A stretch of DNA of 64,000 bases from Sugiyamaella lignohabitans (Eukaryota > Ascomycota > Dipodascomycetes > Dipodascales > Trichomonascaceae): positions 1,922,001 through 1,986,000 of the forward strand of contig NC_031671.1 of assembly GCF_001640025.1 (NCBI RefSeq), in the 5' to 3' direction. Each line of letters starts with the position of its first letter. Within the stretch, counting starts at the first letter, position 1. The translations under genes were made by a program, and so were the position numbers. The notes below the pieces were generated by a model. The model had not been told where the DNA came from. It made no database searches and saw only the letters and a program-made list of their open reading frames with translations. This document shows positions 849-60,237 of the stretch, in pieces.

Positions 849-896
849 CGAAGCGAATACAACCAGGTCTGGGCGGAGCCCAGCTGCAGGAGGCAT
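849..896 (-). repeat. Decayed half copy of GC-rich palindromic repeat
   Basis: Reads CGAAGCGAATACAACCAGG, then a shortened hairpin CTGGGCGGAGCCCAG, ending GCAGGAGGCA. One G:C pair is lost from both sides of the stem, so it still pairs. Confidence 0.6.
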
Positions 897-1406
897 TGAC
901 CCCTCCCCGAGAAAAAATTAAAAACTTACGAAACCGACTTGTAAAGAGGACATTATTGCACAAAAACCAGATATTAGATCAAACAGAATTGGCAAGGTAG
1001 ACTACGAGACCGACTGGCGAGAAGCTTGTCTTTTATTGCTCGAAGCAGGAACATCAATCCGACATCGGAAAATCGCGGCTGCATGAACACCCGTCACCCC
1101 GCATTCTGGATCTTCACCGGTGCTTCATTCTTATCGCAAACATTTCTACTCTCTCATTTCAAATACAATTTTTCTTGGCTTGTAGTTCACATGACGAAAA
1201 AAATTGTGTTCGATTTGCTCGCTGCACAAAATCCAGACTCTGATCCGACCCGGCAAACAACTCTTCCGACCCGGGCTGGTCCCGCCAGATGATTTATCCG
1301 CGTGCATACTAAAATATTATATAATGATTATAAAAGTTTGGGGCACGGCTCGAGCACCGTTTACAGCTGAATCGGCCCGATACGGTGGTGCTACTACCCC
1401 TGGACC

Positions 1407-1548
1407 TGCCTCCGGCGGCTGGGGCTCCGCCCCAGACCCTGGTTGTGCTCGCTTCGCGAGCGACTCGGGGCCGGGGCACGTCTCCCGAGCAGCCTCCTAC
1501 AAGGCAGGAGCCACGGGGTCTGGGGCAGAGCCCCAGCCGCCGGAGACA
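1407..1548 (+). repeat. GC-rich palindromic repeat, whole copy with decayed right end
   Basis: Starts TGCCTCCGGCGG with hairpin CTGGGGCTCCGCCCCAG. The left inner hairpin is the short form GCTCGCTTCGCGAGC. The right inner hairpin is decayed (CTCCTACAAGGCAGGAG) and the right end is CCGCCGGAGACA instead of CCGCCGGAGGCA. It ends 66 bp past the stop of the AT-hook gene at 1615. Confidence 0.85.
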
Positions 1549-1614
1549 GGTTTCCACCCGAGTGGTACTGTCATGCAATGAGATTAATAAATAGATGCTA
1601 ATGAACACTGGTCG

Positions 1615-2982
1615 TCATTTTTTGGCGAAGAGCGTGTTGATGAGCTCGTGTAGGGTGGTGGAGATCTCGTCTTTGACGGCCTGGGTTTTGAAATCCGACC
1701 GCTCGTTGGCTAGCTCGGTTTTGAGGTCCTCTTTGAGTTCGACAAGAAGTGCGGTTCGAAGCTCGTCTTTGAGTTCGGCTAGGAACTCTCTTTTCAGCTC
1801 TTGTCTCAGTTCGGTCTTTATTTGTTCTTTTAGAGTCCTGGCGTCGTTCATCGTTTTCTGGTTTTGATGATTGTCGGTTACTACTGACATGGTTTTGCTG
1901 AAACTCTCGCATATCTTGGTTGTGGCCTCGAGACACTGTTTCAGTGCGTTATCTGTGTAGTTCCGGGCTGGCTGGAAGGTGAGATCGTCTTCATAAGTGG
2001 TGACCTCGTTTCTGGGTCTTGTGGTTGTACTGGTGAAGGGTCTTAGTGATGAGTCTGATCTTGGTCGCTTGCGAGGGATTAGACTGTCTCTGCGATCAGA
2101 CTCTTCTCCGTCTCGTTCGTTAGACTCGTCACCGTCATCTCTATCTCGGCTTGATTCGCGGTTTCCACTAAGTTCTGCAATAACTTCAGGATCCAGATCT
2201 CCGTTTTCAATGCCAATATCTATGAGCTCTTTCAGTGCACTTAAAATGTTTGTTTTCTCTACTCCAAGATCCCGCCGTCTGCCTATCGCTTCGTCTATGT
2301 TCACAATTATCACCGTCAAGTCCCAGTTCAATGTGGTGAACGATTTTGCAATGTCCGTGAGCTTCCCAGAGTTGTCTAGTACCAGCTTCCGTTGCGACTC
2401 CATCAACTGCCTCAGTTTACCGCCAATCTGGATCTCAGTGAGTACTGACCCATCCTCATTTTTTGGGATTGTATTGTACTCCTCTTCTTCCGATCCAGCG
2501 TTTTTTGAAAGTTTCCCACTTAATCGCTGATAAAAAGCTTTTTGGTTTGCTTGTGGGTCACCTGTGAATGTTTTCAGGTATTTCATGACAAACTTGGTGA
2601 ATGCAGCTGTGCCTTTATTGTTCCATCTAACCCTCTCATGCTCCTTGGCAAACCCCGAGTTAGGTGTCTCTGATAATGTATTCTTTCTCGGCCGCCCCCT
2701 TTTCTTTTGAAATGAATATTTTTCTTCACTATAATTCTGTTTAGGGGGTGTCATTGGCTCTCGCGGCCGTGTGTTGATAACCTGTCTACTGGTATTACCA
2801 AAACTGGCCCATGATAGGGTTTTCGACCCTTCGGAAGGACCCGCTCTATGTTGCACGATATTGGTCCCAGAGTCCTCTTCACTCTCATCACTCAGTTCCT
2901 CGTCGTCCAGATTGATCTCTTCGTCTTCGTTGCCATCCATGTCCTCGGACTGCTCTCTTTTCAGTGTATTAATGCCTTCCAT
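1615..2982 (-). CDS. Acidic AT-hook protein with C-terminal charged helix, function unknown
   Basis: 455 codons from an ATG at 2982. I do not recognise the family. The N-terminus (about 10-40) is rich in Asp/Glu. KKRGRPRK at about 93-100 is a classical AT-hook, which binds the minor groove of AT-rich DNA. Residues about 115-270 look folded, beginning RVRWNNKGTAAFTKFV, possibly a trihelix/Myb-like module as found in some transposon-derived DNA-binding proteins. A Ser/Arg/Asp-rich linker follows, and the end (about 385-440) is a long highly charged helix (repeats of ELK/DELR), a likely coiled coil. A nuclear DNA-binding role is inferred only from the AT-hook. No intron is needed to keep the frame. 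Confidence 0.75.
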   Translation of the reverse strand: MEGINTLKREQSEDMDGNEDEEINLDDEELSDESEEDSGTNIVQHRAGPSEGSKTLSWASFGNTSRQVINTRPREPMTPPKQNYSEEKYSFQKKRGRPRKNTLSETPNSGFAKEHERVRWNNKGTAAFTKFVMKYLKTFTGDPQANQKAFYQRLSGKLSKNAGSEEEEYNTIPKNEDGSVLTEIQIGGKLRQLMESQRKLVLDNSGKLTDIAKSFTTLNWDLTVIIVNIDEAIGRRRDLGVEKTNILSALKELIDIGIENGDLDPEVIAELSGNRESSRDRDDGDESNERDGEESDRRDSLIPRKRPRSDSSLRPFTSTTTRPRNEVTTYEDDLTFQPARNYTDNALKQCLEATTKICESFSKTMSVVTDNHQNQKTMNDARTLKEQIKTELRQELKREFLAELKDELRTALLVELKEDLKTELANERSDFKTQAVKDEISTTLHELINTLFAKK

Positions 2983-3932: not shown

Positions 3933-4004
3933 GCCGTTGTAGTATAGTGGTTAGTACACTTCGTTGTGGCCGAAGAAACCCAGGCTCGATTCCTGGCAAC
4001 GGCA
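3933..4004 (+). tRNA. tRNA-His (GTG)
   Basis: Cloverleaf of 72 nt including the discriminator A. The acceptor GCCGTTG pairs with CAACGGC, the anticodon stem-loop is CTTCGTTGTGGCCGAAG with anticodon GTG, and the B-box region is GGCTCGATTCC. There is no intron. A run of T at 4009-4015 is a Pol III terminator. The 72 nt are identical to the copy at 5156-5227. Confidence 0.96.
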
Positions 4005-5155: not shown

Positions 5156-5227
5156 GCCGTTGTAGTATAGTGGTTAGTACACTTCGTTGTGGCCGAAGAA
5201 ACCCAGGCTCGATTCCTGGCAACGGCA
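5156..5227 (+). tRNA. tRNA-His (GTG), second identical copy
   Basis: Identical over 72 nt to the gene at 3933-4004, with the same anticodon GTG and acceptor pairing. It is followed by a short T-run. Flanking sequence does not match beyond a few bases, so the duplication is old or kept identical by gene conversion. Confidence 0.96.
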
Positions 5228-10174: not shown

Positions 10175-10602
10175 GGCTCTATAAAACCCAGAATTCTCAA
10201 AAAGAACAGAGATCCCAGGTCTGTTTATTCGGCTTTGCCGGCAATATGGATTGGTCAGACAAAAGCCGAATATCGCACATATATATTTTCAATACGACAC
10301 TGCACGTGACCACAAACCTGCAAAACTCCGCCGGCCGGAATTGACTATCTCAGGGGTAACGGATTCTGCCTCCGGTGGCTGGGGCTCTGCCCCAGACCCC
10401 GTTGCTCTTGCTTCGCAAGAGATGGCGGAAACTGTCGGGATATCCAGTGTTTCAAGTTCCCACAGAGTTTGAAGCGAAATTTCAGGTGAAGAGAGGGGAT
10501 GATAGTAACATTTTAGGCTGGAGAAACGCAGCTTACACGAAGCTAGAATAAATAAAGAGCCTGTTGAGGCTTTAAGAAGTGTAACTAAACATTCGAGAAT
10601 GT
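10175..10602. other. Intergenic with one half repeat
   Basis: ATM1 upstream region and 3' flank of the LURP-like gene. Contains the half repeat at 10367-10422 and nothing else recognised. Confidence 0.5.
10367..10422 (+). repeat. Half copy of GC-rich palindromic repeat (A-type arm)
   Basis: TGCCTCCGGTGG, then CTGGGGCTCTGCCCCAG, then inner hairpin CTCTTGCTTCGCAAGAG. Most copies have CTCCTGCTTCGCAGGAG, so both sides of one stem pair have changed together (C:G to T:A). Confidence 0.9.
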
Positions 10603-11690: not shown

Positions 11691-12203
11691 TTCCAACTGA
11701 AATTATTGATCAACAACAAGAAAGCGAGAGATACCCACAAACGATTTGTTATGAAATGGTGACACAACTGCTGTAGCAAAACACGAGTTTTTTCAGTTGA
11801 AGACAACCTGACCGATGTTACAACTAACGAACTACGACAAGAACCCCGAAATCCAATCAAGACGTAAACATACGGCGTTATCACGGATCATCGCTGCTCC
11901 TCAGGGGTAACATGCAGGGTCCGATCAGCACCGAATCCTAACCCGCAGGGGTAGGTCGCTGCCTCCGGCGGCTGGGGCTCTGCCCCAGACCCCGTGGCTC
12001 CTCTCACTGCGCTCGAGTCGTTCCGCCGACGGTCCCCAGCAATCTCCTGCGAAGCAGGAGCAACCAGGGTCTGGGGCGGAGCCCCAGCCGCCGGAGGCAG
12101 CGCCCCTCCAGAGATTAAGTTATACAAACATTTATTCATATAATGCAAAACAATAAATAGAAAAGAAAAAGTAAATGCAATAAAATCGAAAAAGAACCTC
12201 GAT
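11691..12203. other. Intergenic with one whole repeat copy
   Basis: Promoter side of the LURP-like gene and 3' flank of DNF3. Contains the palindromic repeat at 11960-12099. Confidence 0.6.
11960..12099 (+). repeat. GC-rich palindromic repeat, whole copy (B/A orientation)
   Basis: Left arm with B hairpin CTCTCACTGCGCTCGAG, centre GTTCCGCCGACGGTCCCC, right arm with A hairpin CTCCTGCGAAGCAGGAG, ending CCGCCGGAGGCA. It lies 104 bp beyond the DNF3 stop. Confidence 0.93.
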
Positions 12204-15200
12204 CTAGTACTCCATATCGAGCTCTTGTTGACGTCGTTTGAGAATCTCCTGGATTTCCCGCTCATACTCGCCGCTCGTCTTGCGGCCGAATTTAACCATT
12301 TTCTTGAGTTTCTGTCTGGTTCCAGATCTTGGCAATGGTCGTGATACGTCTTCATCGGAGTAGTCGTCATAGAAGTTTTGTGGATGGGCGATGATCGAAG
12401 AACCAGATTGTCTTGGAGGCAGGCGAATGTTGCCGGAGGAAAGACCGCTGACACGGGCTTCAGCATCCAATTGACTACGTTTCGTGCTGAGACTATAGTG
12501 AAGCTCTTCGAAAGCTTCCTCTTCAAGTCGGTTACGCACATCGGCATTCTTCTCGAGCTCTTGGAAAACATCTGTCTCATTCTGTAACACCTTGGATCTA
12601 GCAAGACGAACCACTACTTCGAAGGTTAGGCCAACACCAAAAATAACCAAAATTGTCGTCCAGAATGACAAGTCTGTTCCAAACTCTTCAAAAAGAGCGT
12701 GAGCCACGAAATAAATCTTCGACGGCTTCTTGCTGTAAATGTAAGACAAAAACATGTTCCAGCACATCCATCCGCCAATAGAGAGAACCATGGTACCGAC
12801 ATTAATCACGGTAATATAGTGCATCTCCAGCAGCTGAAGCTTGGTACAGATCAGAATAATGATACTGGTAAACGAAATCACGCCCAATGGATACAGCGTG
12901 TTATCAACAATGGCATGGAACCCATACAAGTAGTAGGTCAAGAACGATACCATGACGCTCTGTGAAGCAGCAATAACCATCCATCCAAGGAATATCAGCA
13001 GTCCAAACGCTTGATTCTGCTGCCCCTTGGCATATAGCTCAGGTACAGCAATCAAAGTAGCAGGCTCCAAATCCTTCTCAAAAATACCAATACAAAGTAC
13101 TGGCAAACTTGTGAATAAAGTGTTGAACATGGACAGAGACCAGTTCTCGTACAATGAGGTTCCTGTGAACATGGTGTTTCCTTGGAAGATTGCCTGTGTG
13201 AGGTAGAACAGAAATTCCTTGTAAAAGGTACCCAAGATATACTTGCAAGTTCTGACATAGTTCCATCGTCCATGGACTAGCAATAGCTTAAGAAGGTATC
13301 GGAACTGGGCAATAGAATAATCAGACGAACGAGCCGCTTGTAGACCCTCTTTACCAGTGATACCAATACCTACATCAGCACTTTGAATCATAGCAATATC
13401 GTTGGCACCATCACCAATGGCTAATGTAATCGACGACTTGACCTTCTTGCGCACAGCCTTGACCATAGAAGCTTTCTGTGAAGGAGAGGCACGACAACAG
13501 ATGACTGAATCAGCTTTGACTCCTAAATCGATAAACAGAGACATAAGTGTCATGTCATGTTCAATATGGGAAAGTGTGATACCATCGACAACGACCACGC
13601 AGTGTGCCACGCGATTATTATCAAGCTCTATCATGGCTGCAGCCATTTTACCAGCTACATCACCTTCATCTGACCGGAGAATAACCACTGTAGAGTAGTC
13701 CTTGATAAGCCGACACGAGTAGCCAATGTTAATGGCAGTCTCACGCTTGTCACCAGTCAACATCCATAGTTTGATATTAGCACGACGCAGTTTATCAATG
13801 GCCTCGGGAACACCATCTTGAAGTTTATCTTCAATGGCAGTTGCTCCACACAATTCAAAGTCATGTTCAATGGCTTCACCCACTTTCTCGACTTTTTCTT
13901 GTCGATTAACGAGACTGGTACGAGCGTCTTGGTACAGCTTCTTCCAATTGTCATATTCTTCCTTTGGCATCCAACGATACGAGTACAACAGAGTACGTAA
14001 ACCTTCAGTGGAGAACTCTTCAATATGTTCAAGAGTCTTTTCCATGACATAGTTGTCGTTCAACACCAGATGGTCGTCAATTGGTGCCTGGATTTTGCCA
14101 ATGTTATCGATAGAATCGTCACCGTCATCGCCACTTTCCCCGTAGACACCACTGTTATCAGCATCGCCAGCATGGAAAGAAGACTTTCTAATGAGATCTC
14201 TGGAACGACGTGCCCCGTCAAATGAGACACGACCGCGTCTATTGCTGCTACCAGTGGCAGTTGGAACAGTAGACTCGCCGTATTTACGCTGTCTAGCCAA
14301 ACTCATGGATCGTCGAGATGACTCAGCAATTTGTTCAATGTCATGATCCTGATGTGACCTATTGAGATGATTATCAAGAGATGCCAGAGCATCTTTTCGG
14401 TCAATACCGAAACTGGGTCTACTGAAACTGAGTCTACCTGTGCCCGTAATAGACGTCCGATTAAGACTTGACAAACTGTTTCTAGCAATGACGACCTCAG
14501 CTTCAGCGGCTTTTCGAAGCGACGACTGTTGTTGGATCTCTTGAGCCTTTTCTAATGCCAGTGAAGATTGACGAAGTCGTTCTAAAATCACATTATCAGC
14601 ACCTTTACAGAACACACAAATACGTCCATCGGGGAATCTGACTACAATAGACATTCTCTTTCGAGCACTGGAAAACTCAATAATCTCCAAAATTTCGTAC
14701 ACCTCGTCGACTGGACCCTCATCGAATCCATTGGGATACGTACGAATCGTCATCTTATTGTGCTGCCTATCAATGAGCAAGTAACCCATATCTCTAGCAG
14801 CAGCTACAAGAGCCAGTTCATCTGGCGAGGCAGCACTATAATCAAGGCTTTCAATTTCAACTTCGCCATCGGCAGACTCGTGTTGGTCTGATTCAGGCAG
14901 ACACGAGTGACACAGAGCAATAGACAGCAGGAAAAATCTTGCCTTTCGCGCGTATATCGAGTTGGGATGCAAAATCAAGTACTCAATGAGCTCTAAAGTT
15001 GACTTGATATCCTGTACTTTCGTCGGATTGGCAGTGGATTTCCATGTATTGACCGAAGTAACTCGACCAAGACTGGCCATACTCTTACGAGGCAGACCAC
15101 TTGACTTTCGATGGTAGTCAATAGACGTTTTGGCACTGACACCACTAGGACGTTTCATATAAGTTGAGCTTTTACGTGAAACCCCACTGGTACTTTTCCT

Positions 15201-18012
15201 TGGCAATGCTGCTACTTGACGAAGAATGCTATCTGTGCTGGGACGAGGAGTATAACTAATCGAAGTCCTGGTCTGACTACTAGGACCAGCAGTACCCGAA
15301 GGACCAGCACTTGATCCTTGTGATACCACAACCGTTCCTCTGCCTTCAGATTTCCGAAGAGCAGACCGGCTGCGTTTTTGAGCAGCAGGAGCAGCGGGAC
15401 TAAATACAACCTCACTAACTCGCTCGGAATGCTTATGAGCACTCTTGCCATTATCACTGGTATCCCTGAAATCATTTCTATCACCACTTATCTCCACAAC
15501 AGCACCAGCACCAGCACGTCTTCTATCAGCCCGCTTAAACAACAGACTCTTTTTCTTGCCAGCATGACTAGATTCCAATTCAGCAGCAGTAGCAGCGGCC
15601 GAGGCAGCAGCAGCAGCTGCTGCTGCTTCTTCTGCTTCAATAGCTTCCATCTGAATATCAATATCATGCAACCAGGCAACACCGGCAATTGACAATTTAC
15701 GGAAAATCATGACGTTGTCCGTCAAAGTACCAGTTTTGTCCGAGAAAATATAGCTGACTTGACCCAGCTCTTCATTAATGGATGCAGTACGAGCTTCACA
15801 GGGGGTGTCAGACACTGCATCATACATGTCTATATCTTTCTGAAGCAGCACCATTTGCACCACCTTGATAATCTCCATAGAGACATACAACGACAAGGGA
15901 ATCAGCGTGTTGAACATGATAATAAAACCCATCAAATTAGGCACCACGCCCACTTCTAGTCCTGTCAGATACCACATTCTGTACCCGCTAGTATTATAAT
16001 ACACCTTGCAAGCGACAGTACAAAACACCGATAAAGCGAGCACAAAAATAACCATGCAAATAACGATATTGTTGACTTTTTTCTGTAATCTAGGAGACTT
16101 GGATCGTGGGTTCTGAATAGCATTCATTCGAATCTTGGACTCCTCACCAGTGAAAACCGCTAAACCAAGAGCAGACGACGTGTTTCTGAGAATACTGCCT
16201 CTATAAACGATATGACTCGACGACAGAGGATAATCCCTAGCTTCTATATTAATCGCCGCCTCAAAATTGTATAAATCGAGGTTTGGATCTTCTGTCTTAA
16301 CAAACGCATTCAACGTCGCCAGTTTCTTGTCATCGCCACAAATCTCCTGCAGTCGTGGCAGCGGTTCACGAGTTTTAAGATTAGTCTCTCCGTCCAAAGC
16401 CATTGTCTCGATATACGCCATGCCGTTATTTTCACTGTGTAGCAAAATAATATCTGCCGGCACCCAGTCGTTTGACCCGAGCTTGATAATGTCGCCCACT
16501 CGAATATCCTTCCAAGCGACCTCTTCATACACGACCGGCGTATCACTGAGCGCGTCGTCTCGGCCGTCATAATTCAAATTCAACCTCGCTACCAAAGCGG
16601 TCCGGTTATTCTCGGCCTTATCCTGGCGATGCCGCCGCCAATCGTCATAGCCCTCTCTACCCATCGAAATGGACATGAAAATCAGCAGCGGGATAATCGT
16701 GGTATACGAACCGGTCGTCGACCACGACGGAATCATCTGCATAATCGACACACACAAGAAGTACCTTTTTTCCGTTAGCCAGTGAACGCACAGACGGGGG
16801 ACGTGCCTCCGGCGGCTGGGGCTCCGCCCCAGACCCCGTAGCTCCTGCTTCGCAGGAGTTGCTGGGACTGTCGACGCAACGACTCGAGCGCAGCGAGAGG
16901 AGCCACGGGGTCTGGGGCGCAGCCCCAGCCGCCGGAGGCAGTCCCCGACCCAAAAATACTTACACATTGGCCAGTTTAGAGAACTGGAAGATGATCTGTC
17001 GAGGCAGGAAGTTGTAGGGGGTGTAGATGGATGACGTGATGTTGTTGTCGCAGTGGGGTTTGTTTGTTCGGTCGTCGATTAGAGGCGGCGTGTTGCGGGG
17101 TTTGACTTGGATGGGGATGCCTCGGCCGCCAGTGCTCTCGGGCATCTTCTTTTTGTTGAGAACGAACTCTCTGGCCGATGTGAACCATGCCAGACCTTTT
17201 CGTTTCAGGGTTGGTGAACCCGAGAACATTCTGTTGAACCGTCGAGTGCCTTTATTACGAGCCCATGATGAGTAGTTCGGGAGCAGATCGGAGCTCGATG
17301 CGTTGACGCTGTTGTTACCGTGTTTCTTCTTAATTAGTCCACTGTCATCATTGATATTGCTACTGGTGGTCGAATGGACATGGCGGTGAAATGCTGTGGG
17401 GTGCAGCAACATGTTATTATTACTGTTATTGTTGCTGCTGTTATTGTTGTCGTCAAGCTGGAGAAGCTCTATTGATGGCGGTCTGTCGGCATAGCTCTCG
17501 TCTCTATTACTGCTGTTGTTGTTATTGGCGAGATTGTTATTCGCATTTCCAATGCTAAAAGGGTTATTTTGATTATTACCGGTGTGGAAAGACTCGGTCA
17601 GTTCCATTCCAGGGTCCTCAGAGTTGCTACCGGCATCCAAATGGGATGTACCGGGTCCTGCACCTACCCCTGAATCGACCGGTTTCGGCTGGCTGCTGCT
17701 CGAAAATGACAGAGTATCTTTCGTAGCAGCCATCATCGACTTGGCAAACAACTGGCTTCTCAAACTATACCCTCTTGCTCTTCGAGCAATGGGCTCTGAA
17801 CCAGTCTGCTGCTGCTGCTGAGGCCGGGAATTCGACGACGGCAGCGCACTGATCCCGTCACTGGCATCGCCAGCCGACGAAGCCAACGGCGAACTGGAAT
17901 TCCTACTCGCGCCAAAAGACGGCGGCCTCTCGTTCTGGTTCTGATTCTGGCCGTGCGGCCGGCCTGGTGGGTCTGCCCCGTCGTGCGAATGGTCCCGCTG
18001 ATATTCCGGCAT
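12204..18012 (-). CDS. DNF3: P4-type phospholipid flippase, Dnf3-like, two coding exons
   Basis: Exon 1 is 18012-16964 and exon 2 is 16764-12204, giving 1869 residues. The 199-nt intron (16963-16765) has donor GTAAGT, branch GCTAAC (16779-16774) and acceptor AAG. Splicing joins FQFSKLAN to VYFLCVSIM, restoring the conserved P4 N-terminal motif. Exon 1 begins with about 250 Ser/Asn/Gln-rich residues. Exon 2 has ALDGETNLK, phosphorylated Asp692 in DKTGTLT, a long insert rich in Arg-Lys-Ser motifs (about 725-900), MLTGDK, GDGANDIAMI, and C-terminal helices with FTGTSLYENWSLSMFNTLFTS, which most resembles Dnf3. The family moves phospholipids from the lumenal/outer to the cytosolic leaflet of trans-Golgi or plasma membrane. 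The insert is longer than in Saccharomyces Dnf3 (1656 residues). One palindromic repeat fills most of the intron. Confidence 0.9.
16804..16940 (+). repeat. GC-rich palindromic repeat inside DNF3 intron (A/B)
   Basis: 137 of the 199 intron bases. Left arm has the A hairpin, the centre is TTGCTGGGACTGTCGACG, and the right arm has the B hairpin. It is flanked outside by GGGGGACG on the left and GTCCCCGACCC on the right. Confidence 0.95.
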
Positions 18013-18013: not shown

Positions 18014-18224
18014 CTAGAACTTCTAAACCCATCGTTAGCAATTTGTCTACCGGGGAGTCAATGCCTCCGGCGGCTGGGGCTTCGCCCCAGACCCCGTAGC
18101 TCCTGCTTCGCAGGAGATGGCTGGGACCGTCGACGCCCGACTCGAGCGAAGCGAGAGGAGCAACCCGGGTCTGGGGCGGAGCCCCAGCCGCCGGAGGCAT
18201 GCCCGTGCCCCAAGAAATACTCAC
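18014..18224 (-). other. Probable 5'-leader intron of DNF3 holding a repeat
   Basis: Reading leftward: donor GTGAGT at 18224, branch GCTAAC at 18039-18034, acceptor CTAG at 18014, one base before the DNF3 start codon. Joining the exons does not put an upstream ATG in frame with DNF3, so I treat it as a leader intron. It is 211 nt long, 138 of them a palindromic repeat. Transcript data would settle it. Confidence 0.55.
18062..18199 (+). repeat. GC-rich palindromic repeat, whole copy (A/B)
   Basis: A hairpin on the left, centre GGCTGGGACCGTCGACG, B hairpin CTCGAGCGAAGCGAGAG on the right. It lies within the probable DNF3 leader intron. Confidence 0.95.
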
Positions 18225-20060: not shown

Positions 20061-20120
20061 GTCGACTCGAGCGCAGCGAGAGGAGCAACGGGGTCTGGGG
20101 CGGAGCCCCAGCCGGAGGCA
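20061..20120 (+). repeat. Half repeat (right B-type arm)
   Basis: GTCGACTCGAGCGCAGCGAG through CTGGGGCGGAGCCCCAG to CCGGAGGCA, with one CCG unit lost before the end. Confidence 0.85.
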
Positions 20121-41917: not shown

Positions 41918-41968
41918 TGCCTCCGGCGGCCGGGCTCCGCCCGGACCCGTTGCTCCGCTTCGCGGAGG
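41918..41968 (+). repeat. Half repeat (left C-type arm, short stems)
   Basis: TGCCTCCGGCGG, CCGGGCTCCGCCCGG, CCGTTGCTCCGCTTCGCGGAG. The first stem is shorter by one pair and has C:G in place of T:A. It remains fully paired. Confidence 0.9.
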
Positions 41969-42688
41969 GATTGGGGGGTATGGTTGGGTTGGGTTGGCAT
42001 CGCGAGTTTTGTTGGTGTTCTTTTTTTTTGAGTGACCGATCTTCACGAGATACATCATCTCGAACAATAAGATTATAGCCTGTGCTGCTGCTTTTTCGGC
42101 TCGCCACGCGTCACAAAGGACTATCGTTTGAATCCTTTTTAGTGCCATTGCTGCGATGGGCTGGCTGCTGGCTGCTTCTCGCGATAGCTGCTGCCGGCAC
42201 AGACTCTGCCCGTGTCGATACACAGGTCGGTCCACCTGCAGACAGACCGTTAGCTCTGGCTCCCGCCACGATCACACTTGCTCCTTCTCCTTCGGTCTGT
42301 CGTATCTGATCTGATCTGATGTGAATCACTCAATTGGCTGGCGACCTGGTCCAAGAGCCTGTCAATGCGTTTTTAGCTTCACCCACTACCATCCCACCTC
42401 CCAGAAGCACCTCCTCTCAAAGTCCTCTCTCTGTGATTCTTTTTCTCCTGCTGCTGCTTCTTCTGCCGATGTCGACCACAGGTCACTTCCAACAACACCA
42501 GCACCAGCACCAGCAGCTGCTGTAGCGTCCAACACACGACCGGCAGCAGACCGGCCGGCAGAAACCCCATGCGCTGCGACGCGGTGCAACGCATCCTTTG
42601 ATTTAAAGTTCGGGTCAAGGCTCGGCCACTCTGCATCGTCCAACGCGCTCCGTGTCCGTTTTCTCGGGATACACTCGCGACCGACGTC

Positions 42689-42830
42689 TGCCTCCGGCGG
42701 CTGGGGCTCCGCCCCAGACCCTGGCTGCTCCTCTCGCTGCGCTCGAGTCGTTCCGTCGACGGTCCCAGTAGCAACTCCTGCGAAGCAGGAGCAACCAGGG
42801 TCTGGGGCGGAGCCCCAGCCGCCGGAGGCA
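42689..42830 (+). repeat. GC-rich palindromic repeat, whole copy (B/A)
   Basis: B hairpin CTCTCGCTGCGCTCGAG left, centre TTCCGTCGACGGTCCCAG, A hairpin right. CACCCCGACTTCCCCC follows the right end. Confidence 0.95.
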
Positions 42831-43406: not shown

Positions 43407-43468
43407 TGCCTCCGGCATCTGGGGCTCCGCCCCAGACCCCGTGGCTCCTCTCGCTTCGCTCGAGTCGG
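43407..43468 (+). repeat. Half repeat (left B-type arm)
   Basis: TGCCTCCGGCAT (terminal pairing partly lost), CTGGGGCTCCGCCCCAG, B hairpin, then GGGCGTGGGG. Confidence 0.88.
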
Positions 43469-44150
43469 GCGTGGGGGGTGTCAGATTTAATTTTGGCGGT
43501 GTCAGTTCAATAGAGAGCTGTTTTCTTTGCTGTTTGATTGTTTTTTGTCTCGTATCCACTGGTTTGTAAGCGGTTAAATACTGTTACGTGAATTGACAGC
43601 TGTGATCCAAGTACAGTGTCTATGTAGGACGTGTATTACGAAGCAAGTTGGGATAAATCAGCATTCAACTCACACCCTCCATAAGACCAAAAAAGAGAAT
43701 AAACGAAATGACACTCAGACAGAACACAAATTTGATAGTTTCAATGGTGGTACAAATGTGGAAGTTACAGGGGGAGCACCTGCAGCTTCCCCTGAAAAAA
43801 AAGGGTCCTGGCCGATCCATGCGCCCAGAACATGGGGATTAAGCGAGCATCCATGCATGGCAGACGCATGGCAATCACATGACGAGAGTTCAGGAGACGC
43901 CGTCAGGGGACTGACCCCTGAATTTTCGATAAAACCTACGAAAATTCAAGAAAAAAATACAAAAGAACGACAACAGTCCACGGCGAACAAGCTACTCACA
44001 TGATGCAAAAATTCACAACTCGACAGCCCGACTCGCAGCTACCAAATACACCTCTCTTCCCTCTTTCCCCTCACCAGACCCAATAACGGGCACCTCCCTC
44101 TCACTCATCACCCTCCAACTGCATATAAAAACAGGGGACCCCCCTAAACC

Positions 44151-44210
44151 GACTCGAGCGAAGCGAGAGGAGCGGCGGGGTCTGGGGCGGAGCCCCAGCC
44201 GCCGGAGGCA
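44151..44210 (+). repeat. Half repeat (right B-type arm)
   Basis: B hairpin CTCGAGCGAAGCGAGAG, CTGGGGCGGAGCCCCAG, end CCGCCGGAGGCA then GCACCCCACCC. Confidence 0.9.
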
Positions 44211-46822: not shown

Positions 46823-46980
46823 TGCCTCCGGCGGCTGGGGCTCCGCCCCAGACCCTGGTTGCTCCTCTCGCTTCGCTCGAGTCGGGCCTCGTCACCCTTC
46901 CACAAGGGGGGGTCCAAATGCCTCCGGCGGCTGGGGCTCCGCCCCAGACCCTGGCTGCTCCTCTCGCTTCACTCGAGTAG
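46823..46980 (+). repeat. Tandem array: two 96-bp units, left B-type half repeats
   Basis: Halves at 46823-46885 and 46919-46980, each preceded by GGGGGTCCACA or GGGGGTCCAAA. The second B hairpin is decaying (CTCTCGCTTCACTCGAG). The first unit starts 65 bp after the RAX1 stop. Confidence 0.94.
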
Positions 46981-47289
46981 GGCGTGTATCCAACAGATAT
47001 TAACCAGGGCCATGAAAAAAACTTCACATACGAACTCTATCGAATACAGGGTGTTACGAAAAGAGAGAAAGCCCAGGAGGGATGCTGCCAGGTACGGATA
47101 TCATAGTATTTTTAGAAGACCACGAAGATGTACGAACAAGCTCTTTATAGGCCCTAATATTAGCATCAAATTAATATCACCTACTAAATGTGGTGGAACT
47201 TCTACAGCTGGACCACTATATGATTGTATCCTAGATGAAGGGGATATCAGAAAAGAATATACAAATAAGTTTTTTGGAAGTCCTGGCAA

Positions 47290-47434
47290 CTCCTGCGAAG
47301 CAAGAGCCCCGGGGTCTGGGGCTCCGCCCCAGCCGCCGGAGGCATTGTGGCCCCCAAGTTGTCACCAGGGTCCTGAAATCTCCTGCGAAGCAGGAGCCAC
47401 GGGGTCTGGGGCGAAGCCCCAGCCGCCGGAGGCA
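47290..47434 (-). repeat. Tandem array: two 90-bp units, A-type half repeats
   Basis: Halves at 47290-47344 and 47380-47434, read on the plus strand as right arms. The first has loop TCC (CTGGGGCTCCGCCCCAG) where right arms normally have a purine loop such as GGA, as if the hairpin had flipped. The second has loop GAA. The terminal end faces the ELL1 stop 116 bp away. Confidence 0.94.
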
Positions 47435-47549: not shown

Positions 47550-49870
47550 TTAGATAGAAGTTTTTTTCATTTTGGGGGAGCTCGCCCACAGGAGCTGTTT
47601 CCAGGACTCGAGATCGCGGTGCATGGACAGCAGACGCTGGATGTCGGACTTGGGTCGCTTGCCGCGTGCGGACAGCACCGAGTAGAGCTTGGCGTACTCG
47701 GAGTAAGTGTCTCTGAACTTGCGGGCCAATTCGAAAAGGTCACCCTCGGAAGCTGGCTGCTGCAGCTTGGATGTGGTGGGTGTGGACGAACGAGCGACTT
47801 TGCGAACTTTGGCATCGGAAGAAGAGGACGACGAGATTCCAGAGGCTGCGGCCTTGCGTTTAACAGGCGCGCCATTAGAACTCGTTGTTCCATTTGTAAT
47901 AGTTCCAGGACTGCTGGTGTTCGCGTGGTGCATCGCTGCTACTTTTAGACTGGGTGATGAAGTGGGTCGGGGTGTTGAAACGTTATTCACAGGAGTTCCA
48001 GACCTAGGTGTATTATGAGCGCTGTTAAACGAGGTGCCAGTACCAGTTATAACTTCATAGTCTGCAGACTCCTCGTCAGAGTCTCGAACATATTCGGCAG
48101 ATTTAATTTTCTTGCTCGATGAGGTGCTCGAGGTGGTGCTGTTGTGGTTATTGTTTCGAGTGGGAGATGGAGACGAGGTTGCTGCTCGTGGTGTGCTTGC
48201 TCCAGATGAAACAAGTTTCTTGGTCCCTTTACCGTTGCTTTTCAGTATAGCACCTACTATTTTTTTAGCAGTAGATGTGCTGGATGGGTTCTTTTCAGGG
48301 TCGCCATAAACTATAGGACTACCATTAGCAACAGCATTCAGACTGCTGGACGAGGAGGAACTGGAAATAGGAGTGGATGCTCGACCATTAGGCACAGAAC
48401 TAGAACTGCCAGTGCTAGCAGATCCATTTGAGCCCGAGTTACCTGAACCACCAGTACCAGTAGTATTAGTACTTGTAGTACCAGTGGTTGTAGAGCTGGT
48501 GCTGGTGGCAGCAGAAGCATCAGAACCGGGTTTAGGAGGTCGCAGTTTGGGGTCTATGATATTCCGTCTGGCCGAGTGATCAGGTGGATAGTGTAATCTA
48601 TCAAAGGCCTCGATAGAACTAGCAATAATTCTGGATCGCTCAACAGTGCTGTAATGTTTCCATTCCCATACTCGAAGGTCTTTATACCTGTTATCAGCCA
48701 GACAGTACTGAGTATTAGCACCAGAACCGCCCGATTCTTTACCATGTTCGTGAAGAATAGCTTCTACTTCAGCCAGCGGCAAATGAGTTCGTGACGAGAT
48801 AGCTGATACGGTATTTGGACCGAGAGCAAGCAGATGGAGCACTCTCATGGTCCCCGACAACAGCGACATGGACGAGAGCGGTTTTTTGGACGTGGTCATA
48901 CTGGCCAAAGATTTGGACGCAGACGATGACGAAGAAGATGCAGATGCAGATGCAGAAGACGACAACGACGTCGCAGAGGTCGACGAAGCAGACAATGAAG
49001 AAGAAGAAGAAGACGAAGAAGACGGGTTGTATGCAGAGAAATTAGGAGACGCCGAGCCCGTGCCAAACGAAGAGGGTGATCCTGGTAAACTGCGTGAACC
49101 GTTCGGTCCATTTGAACCGGTGACAGCAGCAGCGGCAGCTTTAGCAGCCGAAGTGCCAGTCAAAGCTGGACTATTACCCAGACCCGAGCTCGACCCCGAA
49201 CCAGCTCCAGCGCCCATAGGACGACGAATACCGGCTGCCGAATTTGGCCGTTTCATCGACTTGACATCGGACCCGACTCCACTGAGCAAGATCGCGCGAT
49301 GCGACTCCTTCTCCTTCTGCAAAACGTCATTCTGGCTCCGCAGTTTAGACGTCATAGCACTATCATTATTTGACCGTCGCACCGTCACCCGATGCGTCAC
49401 CTTCCCCACATGCTGGTACCCTTCACCACCTCCTCTCCGGAACAGGTCCACATACGATGCTTCCGGGATACTGGTGGCACCAAAAGACTGGTCACCGACT
49501 CTCAATTCCTGGGGTACTGTTAGTTCTGCGGGGTCAGGGGGAGGGGAGGTCTGCCTCCGGCGGCTGGGGCTCCGCCCCAGACCCTGGTTGCTCCTCTCGC
49601 TGCGCTCGAGTCGTTTCGTCGACGGGCCCGGCAAAACTCCTGCAAAGCAGGAGCAACCAGGGTCTGGGGCGGAGCCCCAGCCGCCGGAGGCACGCGGGCC
49701 ACCGCGGTACTTACCCATTTGTCGCCGAAGTGGAACTTGACGCCAGTGCCGTTGCTGCTGGCAATGGCAGCCAGCGCCTCGGGCGTCAGTTTCATGTAGA
49801 TGGCCGAGGGGACCGGGCTGGTGCCCGATTTGTACGGGTTCAGCACCGTCTCAGACAGGTTGACTGACAT
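47550..49870 (-). CDS. ELL1: RNA polymerase II elongation factor ELL (fungal Ell1), two exons
   Basis: Exon 1 is 49870-49715 (52 codons) and exon 2 is 49508-47550, giving 704 residues. The 206-nt intron (49714-49509) has donor GTAAGT, branch ACTAAC and acceptor CCAG. Splicing joins KFHFGDKW to ELRVGDQSFG. The N-terminus reads as the ELL domain (VNLSETVLNPYKSG, AIYMKLTPEALAAI, FRRGGGEGYQHVGKVTHRVTV), followed by a Ser/Ala-rich part, a winged-helix-like region (MRVLHLLALGPNTVSAISSRTHLPLAEVEAIL), a long Ser/Thr linker, and a C-terminal occludin-like domain (FRDTYSEYAKLYSVLSARG, DLESWKQLLW). ELL suppresses Pol II pausing. In fission yeast Ell1 works with Eaf1. Saccharomyces cerevisiae lacks it. 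A whole palindromic repeat fills most of the intron. Confidence 0.85.
49552..49692 (+). repeat. GC-rich palindromic repeat inside ELL1 intron (B/A)
   Basis: 141 of 206 intron bases. GGGGGAGGGGAGGTC outside the left end, B hairpin left, A hairpin right (CTCCTGCAAAGCAGGAG, loop variant). Confidence 0.95.
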
Positions 49871-50984: not shown

Positions 50985-51124
50985 TGCCTCCGGCGGCTGG
51001 GGCTCCGCCCCAGACCCTGGTTGCTCCTGCTTCGCAGGAGTTTTTCGGGGTTGGAGACGAAACCGACTCGAGCCGAGCGAGAGGAGCAGCGGGATCTAGG
51101 GCGGGGCCCCAGCCGCCGGAGGCA
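50985..51124 (+). repeat. GC-rich palindromic repeat, whole copy (A/B)
   Basis: A hairpin left, B hairpin right. CTTGGGGGGTCAGGC precedes and GTCTGGCCCCCTC follows. Right stem slightly decayed (CTAGGGCGGGGCCCCAG). Confidence 0.94.
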
Positions 51125-51319: not shown

Positions 51320-51455
51320 TGCCTCCGGCGACTGGGGCTCCACCCCAGACCCTGGTTGCTCCTCTCGCTGTGCTCGAGTCGGGCTTGAGGGTCGCAGCAA
51401 CTCCTGCGAAGCAGGAGCCACGGGGTCTGGGGCAGAGCCCCAGCAGCCGGAGGCA
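51320..51455 (+). repeat. GC-rich palindromic repeat, whole copy (B/A), some decay
   Basis: TGCCTCCGGCGA, CTGGGGCTCCACCCCAG, B hairpin CTCTCGCTGTGCTCGAG left. A hairpin right, CCAGCAGCCGGAGGCA at the end. A G-run lies outside the left end. Confidence 0.93.
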
Positions 51456-51612: not shown

Positions 51613-51752
51613 TGCCTCCGGCGGCTGGGGCTCCGCCCCAGACCCCGTTGCTCCTCTCGCTCCGCTCGAGTCGGTTTCGTCTCCAACCCCGAAAAACTCC
51701 TGCGAAGCAGGAGCAACCAGGGTCTGGGGCGGAGCCCCAGCCGCCGGAGGCA
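51613..51752 (+). repeat. GC-rich palindromic repeat, whole copy (B/A)
   Basis: B hairpin CTCTCGCTCCGCTCGAG left, A hairpin right, CATCCCCCTCCC after the right end. Confidence 0.95.
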
Positions 51753-52219: not shown

Positions 52220-52362
52220 TGCCTCCGGCGGCTGGGGCTCCGCCCCAGACCCCGCTGCTCCTCTCGCTTCGCTCGAGTCGTTTTTCGTCTCCGGTCCCAG
52301 CAAAAACTCCTGCGAAGCAGGAGCAACCAGGGTCTGGGGCGGAGCCCCAGCCGCCGGAGGCA
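52220..52362 (+). repeat. GC-rich palindromic repeat, whole copy (B/A)
   Basis: B hairpin left, centre CGTCTCCGGTCCCAGC, A hairpin right, GATTCCCCCCCTCCCCC after the right end. Confidence 0.95.
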
Positions 52363-52548: not shown

Positions 52549-52691
52549 TGCCTCTGGCGGCTGGGGCTCCGCCCCAGACCCTGGTTGCTCCTGCTTCGCA
52601 GGAGTTTTTGCTGGGACCGGAGACGAAAAACGACTCGAGCGAAGCGAGAGGAGCAGCGGGGTCTGGGGCGGAGCCCCAGCGGCCGGAGGCA
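52549..52691 (+). repeat. GC-rich palindromic repeat, whole copy (A/B)
   Basis: TGCCTCTGGCGG, A hairpin left, centre TTGCTGGGACCGGAGACG, B hairpin right, end GGCCGGAGGCA. It lies 33 bp beyond the SDR stop. Nearly a reverse-complement match of the copy at 52220 (same centre), so the two are close relatives. Confidence 0.95.
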
Positions 52692-55070: not shown

Positions 55071-55858
<788 letters not shown>

Positions 55859-56188
55859 ACAACTCGCCCCAAAATCTGTGGCTGTGGAACTTCTTCGCTT
55901 GTCTGTTGCTTCCCTTCACATGTATATGATTTTCGTAATGATATATATATCTTAAAAAGTATTTTCGAATCCTGGACGGGGTCTGCCTCCGGCGGCTGGG
56001 GCTCCGCCCCAGACCCTGGTTGCTCCTGCTTCGCAGGAGTTTCGCTATGCTTAAGTCGAGCGGCACGGTCCCAGAAACTCCTGCGAAGCAGGAGCAACCA
56101 GGGTCTGGGGCGGAGCCCCAGCCGCCGGAGGCACGCGGGTGGTGCACCGGAGATAGTCCGATAATACATTAGGTTACAAATAAATAAG
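55859..56188. other. Convergent intergenic, mostly one whole repeat
   Basis: Between the stops of RPL40 and SLN1. The repeat at 55984-56133 takes up nearly half. Confidence 0.75.
55984..56133 (+). repeat. GC-rich palindromic repeat with A hairpin in both arms
   Basis: Left CTCCTGCTTCGCAGGAG and right CTCCTGCGAAGCAGGAG. The centre CTATGCTTAAGTCGAGCGG may be a remnant of the B hairpin. At 150 bp it is longer than the usual 136-143. Confidence 0.93.
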
Positions 56189-59100
56189 TCAGTTGGGGCT
56201 GTCGAGCGGTTTGGTGAAGACCGGTTCGTGGAGGAGGATACCGGGACAGTAGGTCGAGAGGGCATTGTGGAGCTCGAGTCGCATGATGGGTTTGGTCAGG
56301 AGCGAGTTCATGCCGGCGCTGAGACAGGTCTCGCGGGTCCGGTCGTCAGCATAGGCTGTGAGCGCGATGATCGTGTAGGGGTACCCGAGAGTACCTCGAA
56401 TGATCTTGGTGGCCTCGATGCCGTCCATTTTCGGCATTTGTACGTCCATAAACACGATATCATAGTGGATTCCCGACTTGATTGCGTCCTCTACTTTCGA
56501 TACCACCTGCTCTCCGTCTAATACACACTCGATATCCTTGATTCCTTCGAGACGTAGAATCCGTTTCATGATTTCTTGGTTAATCAGGTTGTCTTCGGCC
56601 ACGAGAACTCTTAGTGAAGTGGCTGTTAACATCTCACCAGAGTTGTCCGGTAAGGTCAGGGCTGGTGGCGGAGGTGGTGGTGCCATTGATGTCACGGTAC
56701 CTGCACTGGCATCAGCAACCTCACCTCCAGATCGTGCTCGTGGTCGTGGTAAAAAGTATCCTTGTCCAGTTGGTGTCGAGGGTGTCTTTTCTTTACTGTT
56801 CATGCTACCAGTTCGTGGCACAGCCAGACTCCGATTCAGATCTTTTGTGATAAGTGTTGGAGGTTGTAAAGCATTGGCATTGGCGGTGACTGTGGTTGTG
56901 GTGACTGGACTTGTTACGGTCGTGGCAGGTGGTACTGGGTTGGATGGATTCGAGAAACTCGAGTCTCGAGTGCGGTTAATTGAAGGTGCACTTCGAATCG
57001 AGTCTCCTGTGGCAACACTCACTCGTGATAAAGAGGGTGCTAAGTCAAAACTGTGGCTCGCAGGAATCATGTTATTAACGCGGGTTTGTAACGGCACTCT
57101 CAATGTGAATGTGGACCCAGTTCCAACTTCAGAACGTAGCGTGATGGTTCCTCCAAGAACATCTGTCAACTGTCGACAAATGGAAAGACCCAGTCCCGTA
57201 CCGCCAAACTTTCTTGACAATGCTTGATCTCCTTGGATGAACGGTTCAAACACTTGGTTCTGGAACGACTGTTCAATACCAGGACCAGTATCTTCGACCT
57301 CGAATTCAAATATCACTGGACTATTGTTAACTGTAGATATCAACAATCCTCCATTTGCATTCGACAAAGATGTAGCCATGGGTCTTGTTCGAACTGAACC
57401 TCGTCTCGATCCTCCTGCACTCAACACTGAGTTTGGTTTACGAGATTCCATGCTTTCGCGAGCACTTCCTTCTTGAATAGCTCGGTCAATATTAGACAAT
57501 GTTCTAGTCGGTGGGATTAATCCGTTCGATCCACTACTGCCTCCAATACCACCCCCAGTACTGGCAGTTCGATCAAGAGATGCAAATCCCTTGTTATTGG
57601 GATCTACTGGTGAGACACCTCCCGAACCGCCGCCATTAGATTGAAACATCCGACTCCGATGAGTACGAATAAACAACTTGGATGCTGGTTGCGGTGATTG
57701 CGAGCTCGAATTGTGGTCCGAATGGGGCTGTGAAACCCCTGCTCCCTCCATGCTAGGTCGGTTGATGCTACTAGCGTTGACGGTCGTAATTTGATCTAAA
57801 GGTGGTGGCGAAATTGCTGGTGCTGGGACAATTGGCATTGGTGCCTGTGGAGGTGAAAACGTTGTTCTCTGTTCATCTCCAACCAGTTTGACCCGAAGTT
57901 TGACCTCGCCGCTAGGTTTAGTAAATTTCAATCCGTTCGAGAGAAGATTCATCAATACCTGCAATATTCGGCTAAAGTCGCCATATAACAGCATGCTGGA
58001 CACATTTGAAGGTGTCACCGAGTAAGAAAGATTAATATTCTTCTCCACGGCCTGTGGGTCATAAATAGTTCGTAAATGCGAAATGATATCACTAATGGTG
58101 AATTCCTTTTCATCCAATGTGATGTTGCCGACTTGGTTTTTAGAGAATGTCAACAAATCCGTCAACAATTCTAAAAGAACCTCGCCAGACTTGAAAATAA
58201 CTTTGAGCGATCTTCTCATCTTTGAAGGGTCTGTCTCGGTTAGCGACACAGCCGTCATACCTAGAATACCATTTAATGGAGTTCTCAGTTCATGTGTAAT
58301 GTTTGCAATAAATAATGATTTAGCCTCGTTGGCTGATTCTGCCTGGATCTTGGCGGCTTCTGATTCTCGAGTTCTATCCCTCACTCGATCTTCAAGGTGG
58401 AAATACTGTTTAACAAGCTCATCGACCATTCGGTTGTATGTTTCTGTCAAGTCTGTAAGTTCGTCTCTGAAAAAGCGCTGTGATTCACGCACTTTCATAG
58501 GCACTCGGAAATTCGACTTGTTGTGTACAAGCTGTGGTTTGATGGTTGTTTGCTTAAGCGGCATTGGCGGCTTTTCTGAAATGATAGTCATGCTACTGCT
58601 GCTTTCTTTACTTCCGGCTTCTTTTATCAGTGTAGTACTGTCGTCACCGTTGCTGGTACCACTGATAGCACCATCGCTACCAGTAGCACTACCGCTACCG
58701 CTACCACTGCCACTTCCACTTCCACTGATTCCATGATCAGTACCAGATTCTGTTGGCCCATCTGGACCACTGTCTCCTCTAGCACCAATTACACCGGCCG
58801 TCGTATCCACAGCACCACCTCCACTACCACTTCCACCTCCATCGGGCCCTCTATTAATACCCTCATCATCTTCGTCGACAGCACCAGGATCCCTTTTATC
58901 GTCGAGAAACCTGAGCATTGTCTGTTCAGTAGCCATTCGCAGTCTGTAAATGGGCTTGACTGCAAAATGAGCCACGGGAATAGTGAGAAGTACCATGAAC
59001 CCAGCAATCCCCACAGCAGATGCAATGACAATATTCCGGAATTTCGTCGTCTCCGCGTAGATATTGCTATGTGGTTCCTCAATAGCAATGGCCCATGTCG

Positions 59101-60237
59101 TAAATTCGAGGTTTGCTTGAGCATATCCCACTGCTAAATCGTCTCGCAGTGGTGTCTTTGTGTTAATCTGAACGCCACTAGCATTCGAGTTCAGCGCTTC
59201 TTCTAGTACTGGGTACTGTCGAAATCTATAAAGCTTTTCAAAAACACCTTCTGCGAGTTCTTCTTTGGTAGGGTTAGTTGGTGGAAGCAGGTATCTCCAC
59301 TGGTTATAGTCGTTTATAGTGGATAAATTAGCCACATCCACAGCCCCAGCAAGCACCATACGACCCTGACTGGACAGACCAGTGGTATCGTTAATGACTT
59401 TCATGAACTGTTCTGCACTAATCACCAGTGTCAAATAACCAGATAGATCAGGTTTCTCCACCAAAACCGTAGTATTTCCATACACTGGAAGACTAATTGA
59501 AAAGAGGAAATTCGGCGAGCTGTTATAGGGCCCTGAAAGACACCCTCCATTCAGCAGAAGCGATGCAGGAGGTGCACTTGACGGGCTCAGTGGCAGTAAT
59601 TCCTTGTTGATATCATCGAAAGAGTCAATAGTACTGGAATTTGTCGCTGTAAACAGAATATTAAAATTCGGGTCGTAAATCCCCACTGCACCAATATCAC
59701 TGAACGTTCCCAAAGTCGAGTTGAAAAACAGGCCTAAATCTTCCCAGTTGGAATTGGTATTATTTCCTGCCCGATACCTGCTCAGCGACAGCTGAACCTG
59801 GTCACGAGTCGTGAGCCAATAGGCCTGGTAATACAGCGACAAGAACGTCTGCACGATCTGCGACGACTTGAGAACAGCCACTACTTCCAGACTCTCCTCG
59901 GTCAACGAGATGTTGTAGTTGGTCGTATTAACACCCTATTTCTGCTGTTAGTGTCTGAACCTTTGGGTTGGGCAAATGCCTCCGGCGGCTGGGGCTGCGC
60001 CCCAGACCCCGTAGCTCCTGCTTCGCAGGAGATTGCCAGGACCCTCGACGTGACGACTCGAGCGAAGCGAGAGAAGCCAGAGGGGTCTGGGGCACAGCCT
60101 CAGCCACCGGGGGAGGCACACCTTCCCCGAACAAAAAAACTTACTGTGACAATGGCGAGAATTATCAGGGAGAACACGACCACCAGACAGATCAGGATAA
60201 TCAGCTGGAGCCGAATACCAAGATGGAACGTCCGCAT
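56189..60237 (-). CDS. SLN1: Hybrid sensor histidine kinase Sln1, two exons
   Basis: Exon 1 is 60237-60145 (31 codons) and exon 2 is 59935-56189, giving 1279 residues. The 209-nt intron (60144-59936) has donor GTAAGT, branch CACTAAC and acceptor ATAG. Exon 1 supplies the first membrane helix (LQLIILICLVVVFSLIILAIV). An extracellular domain of about 290 residues, a second helix (IASAVGIAGFMVLLTIPVAH), HAMP and coiled coil follow. The kinase core has phospho-acceptor His579 in ITHELRTPLNG, LLSNGLKF (N-box), DTGPGIEQ and GGTGLGLSI. The receiver has Asp1195 in IVFMDVQMPKMDG. Sln1 senses turgor and passes phosphate through Ypd1 to Ssk1, controlling the Hog1 pathway, and to Skn7. Yeast Sln1 is 1220 residues with His576. 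A palindromic repeat occupies 142 bases of the intron. Confidence 0.95.
59977..60118 (+). repeat. GC-rich palindromic repeat inside SLN1 intron (A/B)
   Basis: TGCCTCCGGCGG, CTGGGGCTGCGCCCCAG, A hairpin left. B hairpin CTCGAGCGAAGCGAGAG right. Right end decayed (CAGCCACCGGGGGAGGCA). Confidence 0.94.

Follow-up and report, generated by a model that had tools for sequence, protein, structure and literature searches.

The nuclear genome of the yeast Sugiyamaella lignohabitans carries a genome-wide family of short, GC-rich hairpin repeats, whose ends lie mostly soon after stop codons. The family was recognized in a stretch of 64 kb, positions 1,922,001-1986000 of one long contig (2.77 Mb), which is referred to here as the window. 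Its basic module is an arm of ~56 bp, and a full copy joins two such arms in inverted orientation, an architecture resembling that of the bacterial repeats known as REPINs. The best explanation, proposed tentatively as falling just short of an even call, is a nuclear, REPIN-like, non-autonomous hairpin repeat that has spread without target-site duplications (TSDs) of 3 bp or more, and is tolerated or used at the 3′ ends of transcripts. Units with the same core words in the same order are present in bacteria, and raise the separate question of a relationship across domains.

The yeast assembly totals 15.93 Mb in four contigs of 5.93, 4.95, 2.77, and 2.28 Mb; the accessible portion of the description of S. 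novakii gives that species a genome of 15.38 Mb and, “similarly to S. lignohabitans,” four chromosomes (PMC12232646). Pfam matches were found in six of the nine window open reading frames (ORFs) scanned, among them a TEA factor, a phospholipid-type P-type ATPase, an RGS protein, and a hybrid histidine kinase. The nearest named proteins to the TEA protein are Tec1p-like, from Trichomonascus and Blastobotrys. Since this Tec1-like gene lies on a long contig together with tRNA genes and a 5S rRNA gene (21594-21714), the window is nuclear DNA of a Trichomonascaceae yeast, and a comparison with organelle palindromes in the initial annotation of this DNA has the wrong location.

With up to 2 mismatches, the window contains the 12-bp terminus of the repeat 64 times, where 3.6 would be expected (0 of 100 shuffles as high), and 48 of its termini there are exact. 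Exact termini number 2,942 + 2,916 = 5,858 genome-wide, where a search with the reversed pattern, used as the control for pattern counts, gave 0 + 2; full copies of 128-158 bp in which both termini are exact number 1,103 (control 0). The density and structure reported in the initial annotation are thus borne out, and the repeat is not confined to the window. Its figure of about 45 copies is right only if lone arms are counted as copies; the window has 18 full ones, of 134-150 bp; the remaining matches are lone, nested, or tandem arms, with some decayed or chance matches. Other yeast counts combine the window with 20 stretches (L009-L024 and L151-L154; 180 kb) chosen by place and not by content, with stretches L001-L008 excluded. 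These sampled stretches hold 118 ends, or 0.66 per kb, compared to 1.0 per kb in the window. Copies are present in the stretches sampled from each of the four long contigs, and within the window they sit between yeast genes. They seem to be spread unevenly along the chromosomes: four of the 20 stretches (L013, L014, L017, and L153; 5-10 kb, 41-42% GC) have none, including two that are gene-rich (66% and 77% ORF).

Bases 1-33 of the 182 ends in the window and sample are nearly invariant, save for a short loop. From the end inward the order is TGCCTCCGGCGG, a hairpin CTGGGGC-TCY-GCCCCAG, ACCC, and then an inner hairpin of type A, B, or C; this second hairpin and the three inner types are present as initially described, as is the usual combination of one A and one B arm, found in 37 of the 52 full copies (the two orientations account for 21 and 16). 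Paired double changes are seen in the inner hairpins (CTCCTGC/GCAGGAG, CTCTTGC/GCAAGAG, GCTCGC/GCGAGC, GCACGC/GCGTGC). Within the 37 A+B copies the arm segments are 93-99% conserved, compared to 73% for the centre. Together with the genome-wide copy number, these conserved arms and variable centre agree with the earlier description of a dispersed, non-coding, probably non-autonomous element. Spacing between arms is mostly tight: among 61 neighbouring L-to-R pairs, 44 span 131-150 bp, eight span 300-1000 bp (interior GC 35-52%), and one is longer. Tandem arms, with steps of 90-96 bp, occur at several places.

Doublets account for 104 of the 182 ends, where a rough estimate from random placement would give ~9%; the other 78 are lone. 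Perfect ends make up 78 of the 104 in doublets and 45 of the 78 lone ones, and among ends with no more than 8 mismatches the mean is 0.33 in doublets vs. 0.59 in lone arms (permutation p 0.058). Twelve of the lone ends, six of them in the window, are off consensus at more than 8 of 30 positions, and some of these (e.g., at 41918) are genuine arms whose stem is shorter. The left and right arms of a copy are combined independently of each other. The two share their loop in 24 of 40 copies, where 24.5 would be expected, and their linker in 9 of 36 (6.5 expected; matched by 299 of 2000 shuffles), so that resemblance within a copy is no greater than resemblance between copies. The suggestion in the initial annotation that the element might be spread by conversion is compatible with this.

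For copy 16804-16940 the lowest-energy fold is a single hairpin of ~50 bp, as DNA (-68 kcal/mol, z -11.5) and as RNA (-118.6 kcal/mol, z -12.9). The chain of hairpins originally proposed is an alternative fold of each arm, but it is not the best fold of the one whole copy tested. Three arms have an inverted hairpin loop, either GAA for TTC or a flipped loop in the first hairpin (L010 at 7575, L015 at 2133, and window 47312-47343), a possible sign of cruciform formation or of exchange from arm to arm.

Repeat ends are rare within genes (4 in 78.5 kb of ORF cores) and concentrated just downstream of them. All counts of gene placement use mechanical ORF calls that ignore introns, and distances are measured from start and stop codons. 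On this basis, 49 ORFs are at least 300 aa long and have 300 bp of known sequence downstream; in 24 of these a repeat end falls no more than 100 bp past the stop, and in 29 no more than 150 bp. Rotating the ends within non-ORF sequence gave 6.7 ± 2.5 for the 100-bp count, with a maximum of 15 in 300 draws. The 100 bp before the ATG, by contrast, contain an end in 2 of 45 cases (null 6.4 ± 2.4). At the 24 ORFs, the nearest end belongs to a full copy in 16 cases and to a lone arm in eight. Because the near end of a full copy is in sense by geometry, evidence on orientation comes from the lone arms only: those within 300 bp of stops include 18 in sense, at 10 genes, and two in antisense, at two genes, and those before an ATG include four in antisense and one in sense. 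The ends thus lie mostly soon after stop codons, with lone arms mostly in sense. Since some gene-rich regions are free of copies, the hairpin is evidently not required at every gene end.

A strict pattern for the bacterial units, GCCTCCGGCGGC-NN-GGGG...CCCC-NN-GACCC, was searched in GTDB species genomes and matched at least 120 stretches. Among the matches listed, the carriers include Desulfovibrio, Solidesulfovibrio, Desulfoluna, Bilophila, Oscillibacter, and other Clostridia, as well as Sandarakinorhabdus, Arboricoccus, Victivallis, a Myxococcota metagenome-assembled genome, and others, which we take to span several phyla. Eleven carriers have 5-173 matches each, and the reversed control gave 0 in all 12 genomes searched. 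The yeast genome has 1 match, because its stem is one pair shorter (one free base before GGGG, where the pattern has two). Carriage is patchy. A looser pattern, GCCTCCGGCGGCN{11,31}GACCC, is found in 8 of 119 genomes of the Oscillibacter phylum, 92 times in the carrier and 1-2 times in the seven others, whose nine sites have no G-rich hairpin by eye (one of these genomes also has two control matches); the strict pattern is found in 2 of 79 genomes of the Solidesulfovibrio phylum, 173 and 15 times.

Bacterial counts used stretches L025-L144, with the viral contigs L145-L150 added in one comparison. A covariance model built from 21 bacterial units, one of them from a viral contig, has 157 yeast matches at E ≤ 0.01 in 224 kb, the best scoring 42.1 bits (E 3e-6). 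The 21 units were picked by exact constant blocks, which makes their invariance a matter of construction. As an unselected check, 27 other hairpin-plus-ACCC sites in 120 bacterial loci were compared with the 12-mer shared with yeast: three have it exactly, one has one change, none has 2-3 changes, and 23 have at least 4, one of which is a unit in a shifted register. The bacterial hairpin covaries at two of its seven pairs, with 11 cells changed on both sides vs. 2.2 in shuffles; the pair counts are reached by 245 of 500 shuffles and the pair types by 455 of 500, so that neither stands out. The case for a connection across domains is based on the shared 12-mer, the position of the hairpin, the GACCC, and the covariance-model search.

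Placement in bacteria is similar to that in yeast. There are 37 units inside naive ORFs among 144; of the extra-ORF units with an upstream neighbour within 300 bp (70), 57 lie in sense after the 3′ end of a gene and 13 after a 5′ end, a count that has no further random null and draws on loci chosen for exact units, many from related genomes. The median distance from the stop is 27 bp. Units are mostly single, with a stem usually one pair longer than in yeast and a second hairpin unlike it in sequence. Neighbouring pairs less than 300 bp apart are L-R in 10 cases and R-L in two, and some units extend as chains of hairpin plus GACCC. The 5′ flank is not a G-run, as it is in yeast, but purine-rich (0.75 vs. 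0.55 further out, in 135 units, many from related genomes).

There are some indications of differences between relatives. In Desulfoluna limicola, a unit that follows a gene is absent from the 320 bp past the corresponding gene end in two sister genomes, the intergenes of which are too diverged for a clean empty site. A phage-like contig carries two units, the first following its portal/head-tail adaptor gene and the second in the intergene that separates the major head protein gene from the gene after it. Of its 26 relatives, 22 lack the 12-mer (up to 1 mismatch) in the stretch examined, and in the other four it lies at a different place. That intergene of the contig (L170, 4287-4600) holds a run of hairpins ~310 bp long, with GACCC after several of them. 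Its counterpart in the relatives, where measurable, spans 26-143 bp and often shows, by eye, a single terminator-like hairpin. Separately, Streptomyces (L200 and L202) and Roseivivax (L201) plasmids have intergenic CTGGGGC-NNN-GCCCCAG followed by ACCCCG, without GCCTCCGGCGGC; in L200 and L202 the yeast-like hairpin is followed by repeats containing CCTCAAnCGCCGG.

Database and literature searches gave no name to either repeat. In an Rfam search of the window only the 5S rRNA and tRNAs score above the gathering threshold, and the repeat matches no family; seven bacterial loci gave 7 weak Rfam matches (E ≤ 1), all under gathering scores. A protein search with a frame spanning the yeast repeat found no match. 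No description of the yeast repeat or of the bacterial unit appeared among the top matches of open-access literature searches, and neither these nor Rfam supplied a family name for the bacterial GCCTCCGGCGGC-hairpin-GACCC units.

The yeast repeat has a sharp edge at TGCC, outside which the left flank is G-rich at -3 to -14 and hence the right flank C-rich. Exact flank matches in 52 copies, sought as TSDs of 3-10 bp, number one at 3 bp (a chance match) and none at 4-10 bp. Several candidate mechanisms were tried and rejected. Mobilization by a Tc1/mariner element is not supported by any DDE_3 match in the yeast genome. Mobilization by RAYT/Y1 is not favoured either: Pfam Y1_Tnp (RAYT, IS200) was found neither in yeast nor in six of the 11 bacterial carriers, and the 12-mer (up to 1 mismatch) occurs near just three of 15 Y1 loci, all three in D. 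limicola, which has 126 strict matches anyway. Pairing between the left and right outer flanks of a copy scored 4.88 over 12 bases without offset vs. 4.33 when shuffled (2 of 1000 reach this), but 37 of 1000 do so when offsets are allowed; by duplex energy in short copies, 107 of 300 shuffles reach the observed value, and this pairing is not relied on. Pairing of the flanking G-run with the internal ACCCC fails as a shared feature (yeast -7.72 vs. -5.81 shuffled; bacteria -5.10 vs. -5.67).

Hairpin repeats of the REP type are generally regarded as prokaryotic and linked to RAYT transposases. The yeast repeat resembles REPs, BIMEs, and REPINs in its over-represented inverted doublets, conserved ends, variable spacer, and hairpin, but differs in belonging to a eukaryotic nucleus, in being longer, and in having two hairpins per arm. 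As far as the available part of one account goes, REPINs are inverted doublets with invariant ends and a less conserved spacer, forming one long hairpin, extragenic and present in hundreds to thousands of copies (PMC3116915); REPs are described in part of another as carrying GTAG/CGTC tags (PMC3733652). A position table of the 182 yeast ends shows no unpaired GTAG or CGTC tag beside the hairpin, and with these tags and a RAYT both missing from yeast, the repeat is not classed as a REPIN. Organelle palindromes (GC clusters, double-hairpin elements, and those of Volvox and Lobosphaera) are likewise short, intergenic, and often inserted into one another. The yeast repeat is however nuclear and GC-rich; according to the accessible portions of the two reports, Volvox mitochondrial palindromes are 71-84% AT, and the Lobosphaera LIMPs are AACCA/TGGTT repeats (PMC2670323, PMC4524435). 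The comparison at the level of sequence covers these last two groups.

What we infer for the yeast repeat, namely its mobility, its mode of copying, its presence in mRNA, and any function, can be put together as follows. The repeat would multiply through a DNA hairpin or cruciform, and copies might then exchange arms by recombination. At gene 3′ ends the hairpin would be transcribed into the 3′ untranslated region (UTR) or lie at its edge, where it might survive as a harmless or helpful structure, acting in termination or in protection of the mRNA end. Several observations weigh against this proposal. The greater conservation of doublets over lone arms reaches only p = 0.058. The 18 sense lone arms, many of them in tandem arrays, represent just 10 genes, one of which is counted on the strength of a doubtful match (L012, 6225). 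Four of the 20 sampled regions are free of copies, two of them gene-rich. A 2-bp flank match is present in six of 52 copies (identity 0.288 vs. 0.222 ± 0.037 shuffled), making a 2-bp TSD possible. No mobilizing enzyme was found in yeast, in six-frame searches without introns for Y1 and DDE_3 only. Finally, the one yeast genome gave no sign of a polymorphic or empty site, and mobility itself is something we infer.

Two other explanations for the yeast repeat deserve consideration, and both appear unlikely, the second a little more so. One is that it is a host 3′-end signal, a cellular terminator or mRNA-protecting structure under selection rather than a selfish element. The 24 of 49 ORFs with an end no more than 100 bp past the stop are consistent with such a role, as are the lone arms in sense at 10 genes and in antisense at two, the similar placement of 57 of 70 bacterial units, and the covarying bacterial hairpin. 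It would however leave 20 of the 49 ORFs without an end within 150 bp of the stop, and four sampled regions with no copies at all; the tandem and nested arrays and the patchy bacterial distribution also count against it. The other is an ordinary miniature inverted-repeat transposable element (MITE) or foldback element, the autonomous DNA transposon having been lost or lying outside the families searched. The repeat is indeed short (<600 bp), non-coding, and intergenic, with terminal inverted repeats and thousands of copies, and the possible 2-bp TSD would fit; but the lack of TSDs of 3-10 bp and of DDE_3 (which, with Y1, is all that was searched for), the exchange of arms and their independent assortment, and the post-stop placement are all differences from such elements, and weaken the MITE-like character initially assigned. 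A RAYT-mobilized REP or REPIN in the strict sense is highly improbable: the anatomy is right, but Y1 is missing from yeast and from six of 11 bacterial carriers, and the 12-mer lies near Y1 at three of 15 loci, in one copy-rich genome. Contamination or an assembly artefact may be practically dismissed, with copies on all four long contigs and between yeast genes.

The relationship to the bacterial units is a separate question, on which two answers compete. They may have converged, GC hairpins with favourable loops having been favoured at 3′ ends and arriving at similar words; this is a serious contender, if somewhat below an even prospect. GCC-TCC-GGC and GGGGC-NNN-GCCCC are compact and stable by inspection, the Streptomyces and Roseivivax plasmids have a yeast-like hairpin and ACCCCG without the 12-mer, the usual bacterial stem is unlike that of yeast (as the single yeast match to the strict pattern reflects), and the bacterial 5′ flanks are purine-rich. 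What speaks against convergence is the occurrence of 12 + 5 fixed letters in the same order around a variable hairpin, with 3′-end placement in both groups, and the reversed-pattern control of 0 in all 12 genomes. The alternative is that a single family of 3′-end hairpins occurs both across several bacterial phyla and in the nucleus of a yeast, having crossed domains and kept its post-stop niche, with no transposase recognized. We consider this possible but doubtful, on evidence that includes core words in order, a covarying hairpin, and a mostly sense position just after stops.

Copies in the window are found as follows; the positions in the initial annotation generally hold, but its leftmost “copy” (849-895, minus strand) is a decayed arm fragment with 12 mismatches. 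Three full copies can be placed relative to an ORF or gene: 1407-1548 (142 bp) has its near end 66 bp beyond the 3′ end of ORF 1615-2982 (-); 11960-12099 lies 104 bp downstream of the P-type ATPase gene 12204-16967 (-), counted from its stop; and 55984-56133, which has two A arms, lies 55 bp beyond the histidine-kinase gene 56189-59404 (-) on its 3′ side. The others are 16804-16940 (used for folding, above), 18062-18199, 19620-19761, 26972-27109, 28742-28880, 34379-34521, 42689-42830, 49552-49692, 50985-51124, 51320-51455, 51613-51752, 52220-52362, 52549-52691, and 59977-60118, the last with a decayed right end. At 19382-19491 (+) is a copy with a decayed right end and an approximate right limit, and at 23499-23926 a full copy is accompanied by a tandem duplicate of most of it with flank (157-bp step) and a third lone arm.

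Lone arms have one approximate limit each. On the plus strand these are an A-type arm at 10367-10425 (inner edge approximate), whose inner hairpin shows the double change CTCTTGC/GCAAGAG, a B arm at 33822-33882, and a C-type arm at 41918-41970 with a short stem, CCGGGC/GCCCGG (right limits approximate). On the minus strand, with left limits approximate, are B arms at 20050-20120 (shortened terminus), 20615-20696 (part of the centre kept), and 28025-28089, and C arms at 21865-21928 (C-type, near the 5S rRNA gene) and 33200-33258. Longer inverted pairs consist of A and C arms at 25043-25513 (471 bp overall, interior 35% GC) and of two B arms at 43407-44210 (804 bp overall). Two arrays have a common layout of tandem B arms, an AT-rich interior, and tandem A arms between convergent ORFs: 35931-36882 has three B arms (95-bp steps), a 40% GC interior, and two A arms (90 bp), with its first arm 64 bp after one stop and its last 87 bp after the other, and 46823-47434 has two B arms (96 bp), a 38% GC interior, and two A arms (90 bp), 64 bp and 115 bp after the stops. 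Apart from the repeats, the window has tRNA-His genes at 3933-4004 and 5156-5227, with the same score, ~1.2 kb apart, and with a tRNA-Ala in between.

If the proposed explanation is correct, a eukaryotic nucleus would hold REPIN-like inverted hairpins by the thousand, next to roughly half of the long ORFs in the sample, and with a core that they share with bacterial 3′-end repeats. This yeast would then make two questions testable: how hairpin repeats multiply without an evident transposase, and whether a hairpin just past the stop codon pays its way in the mRNA.

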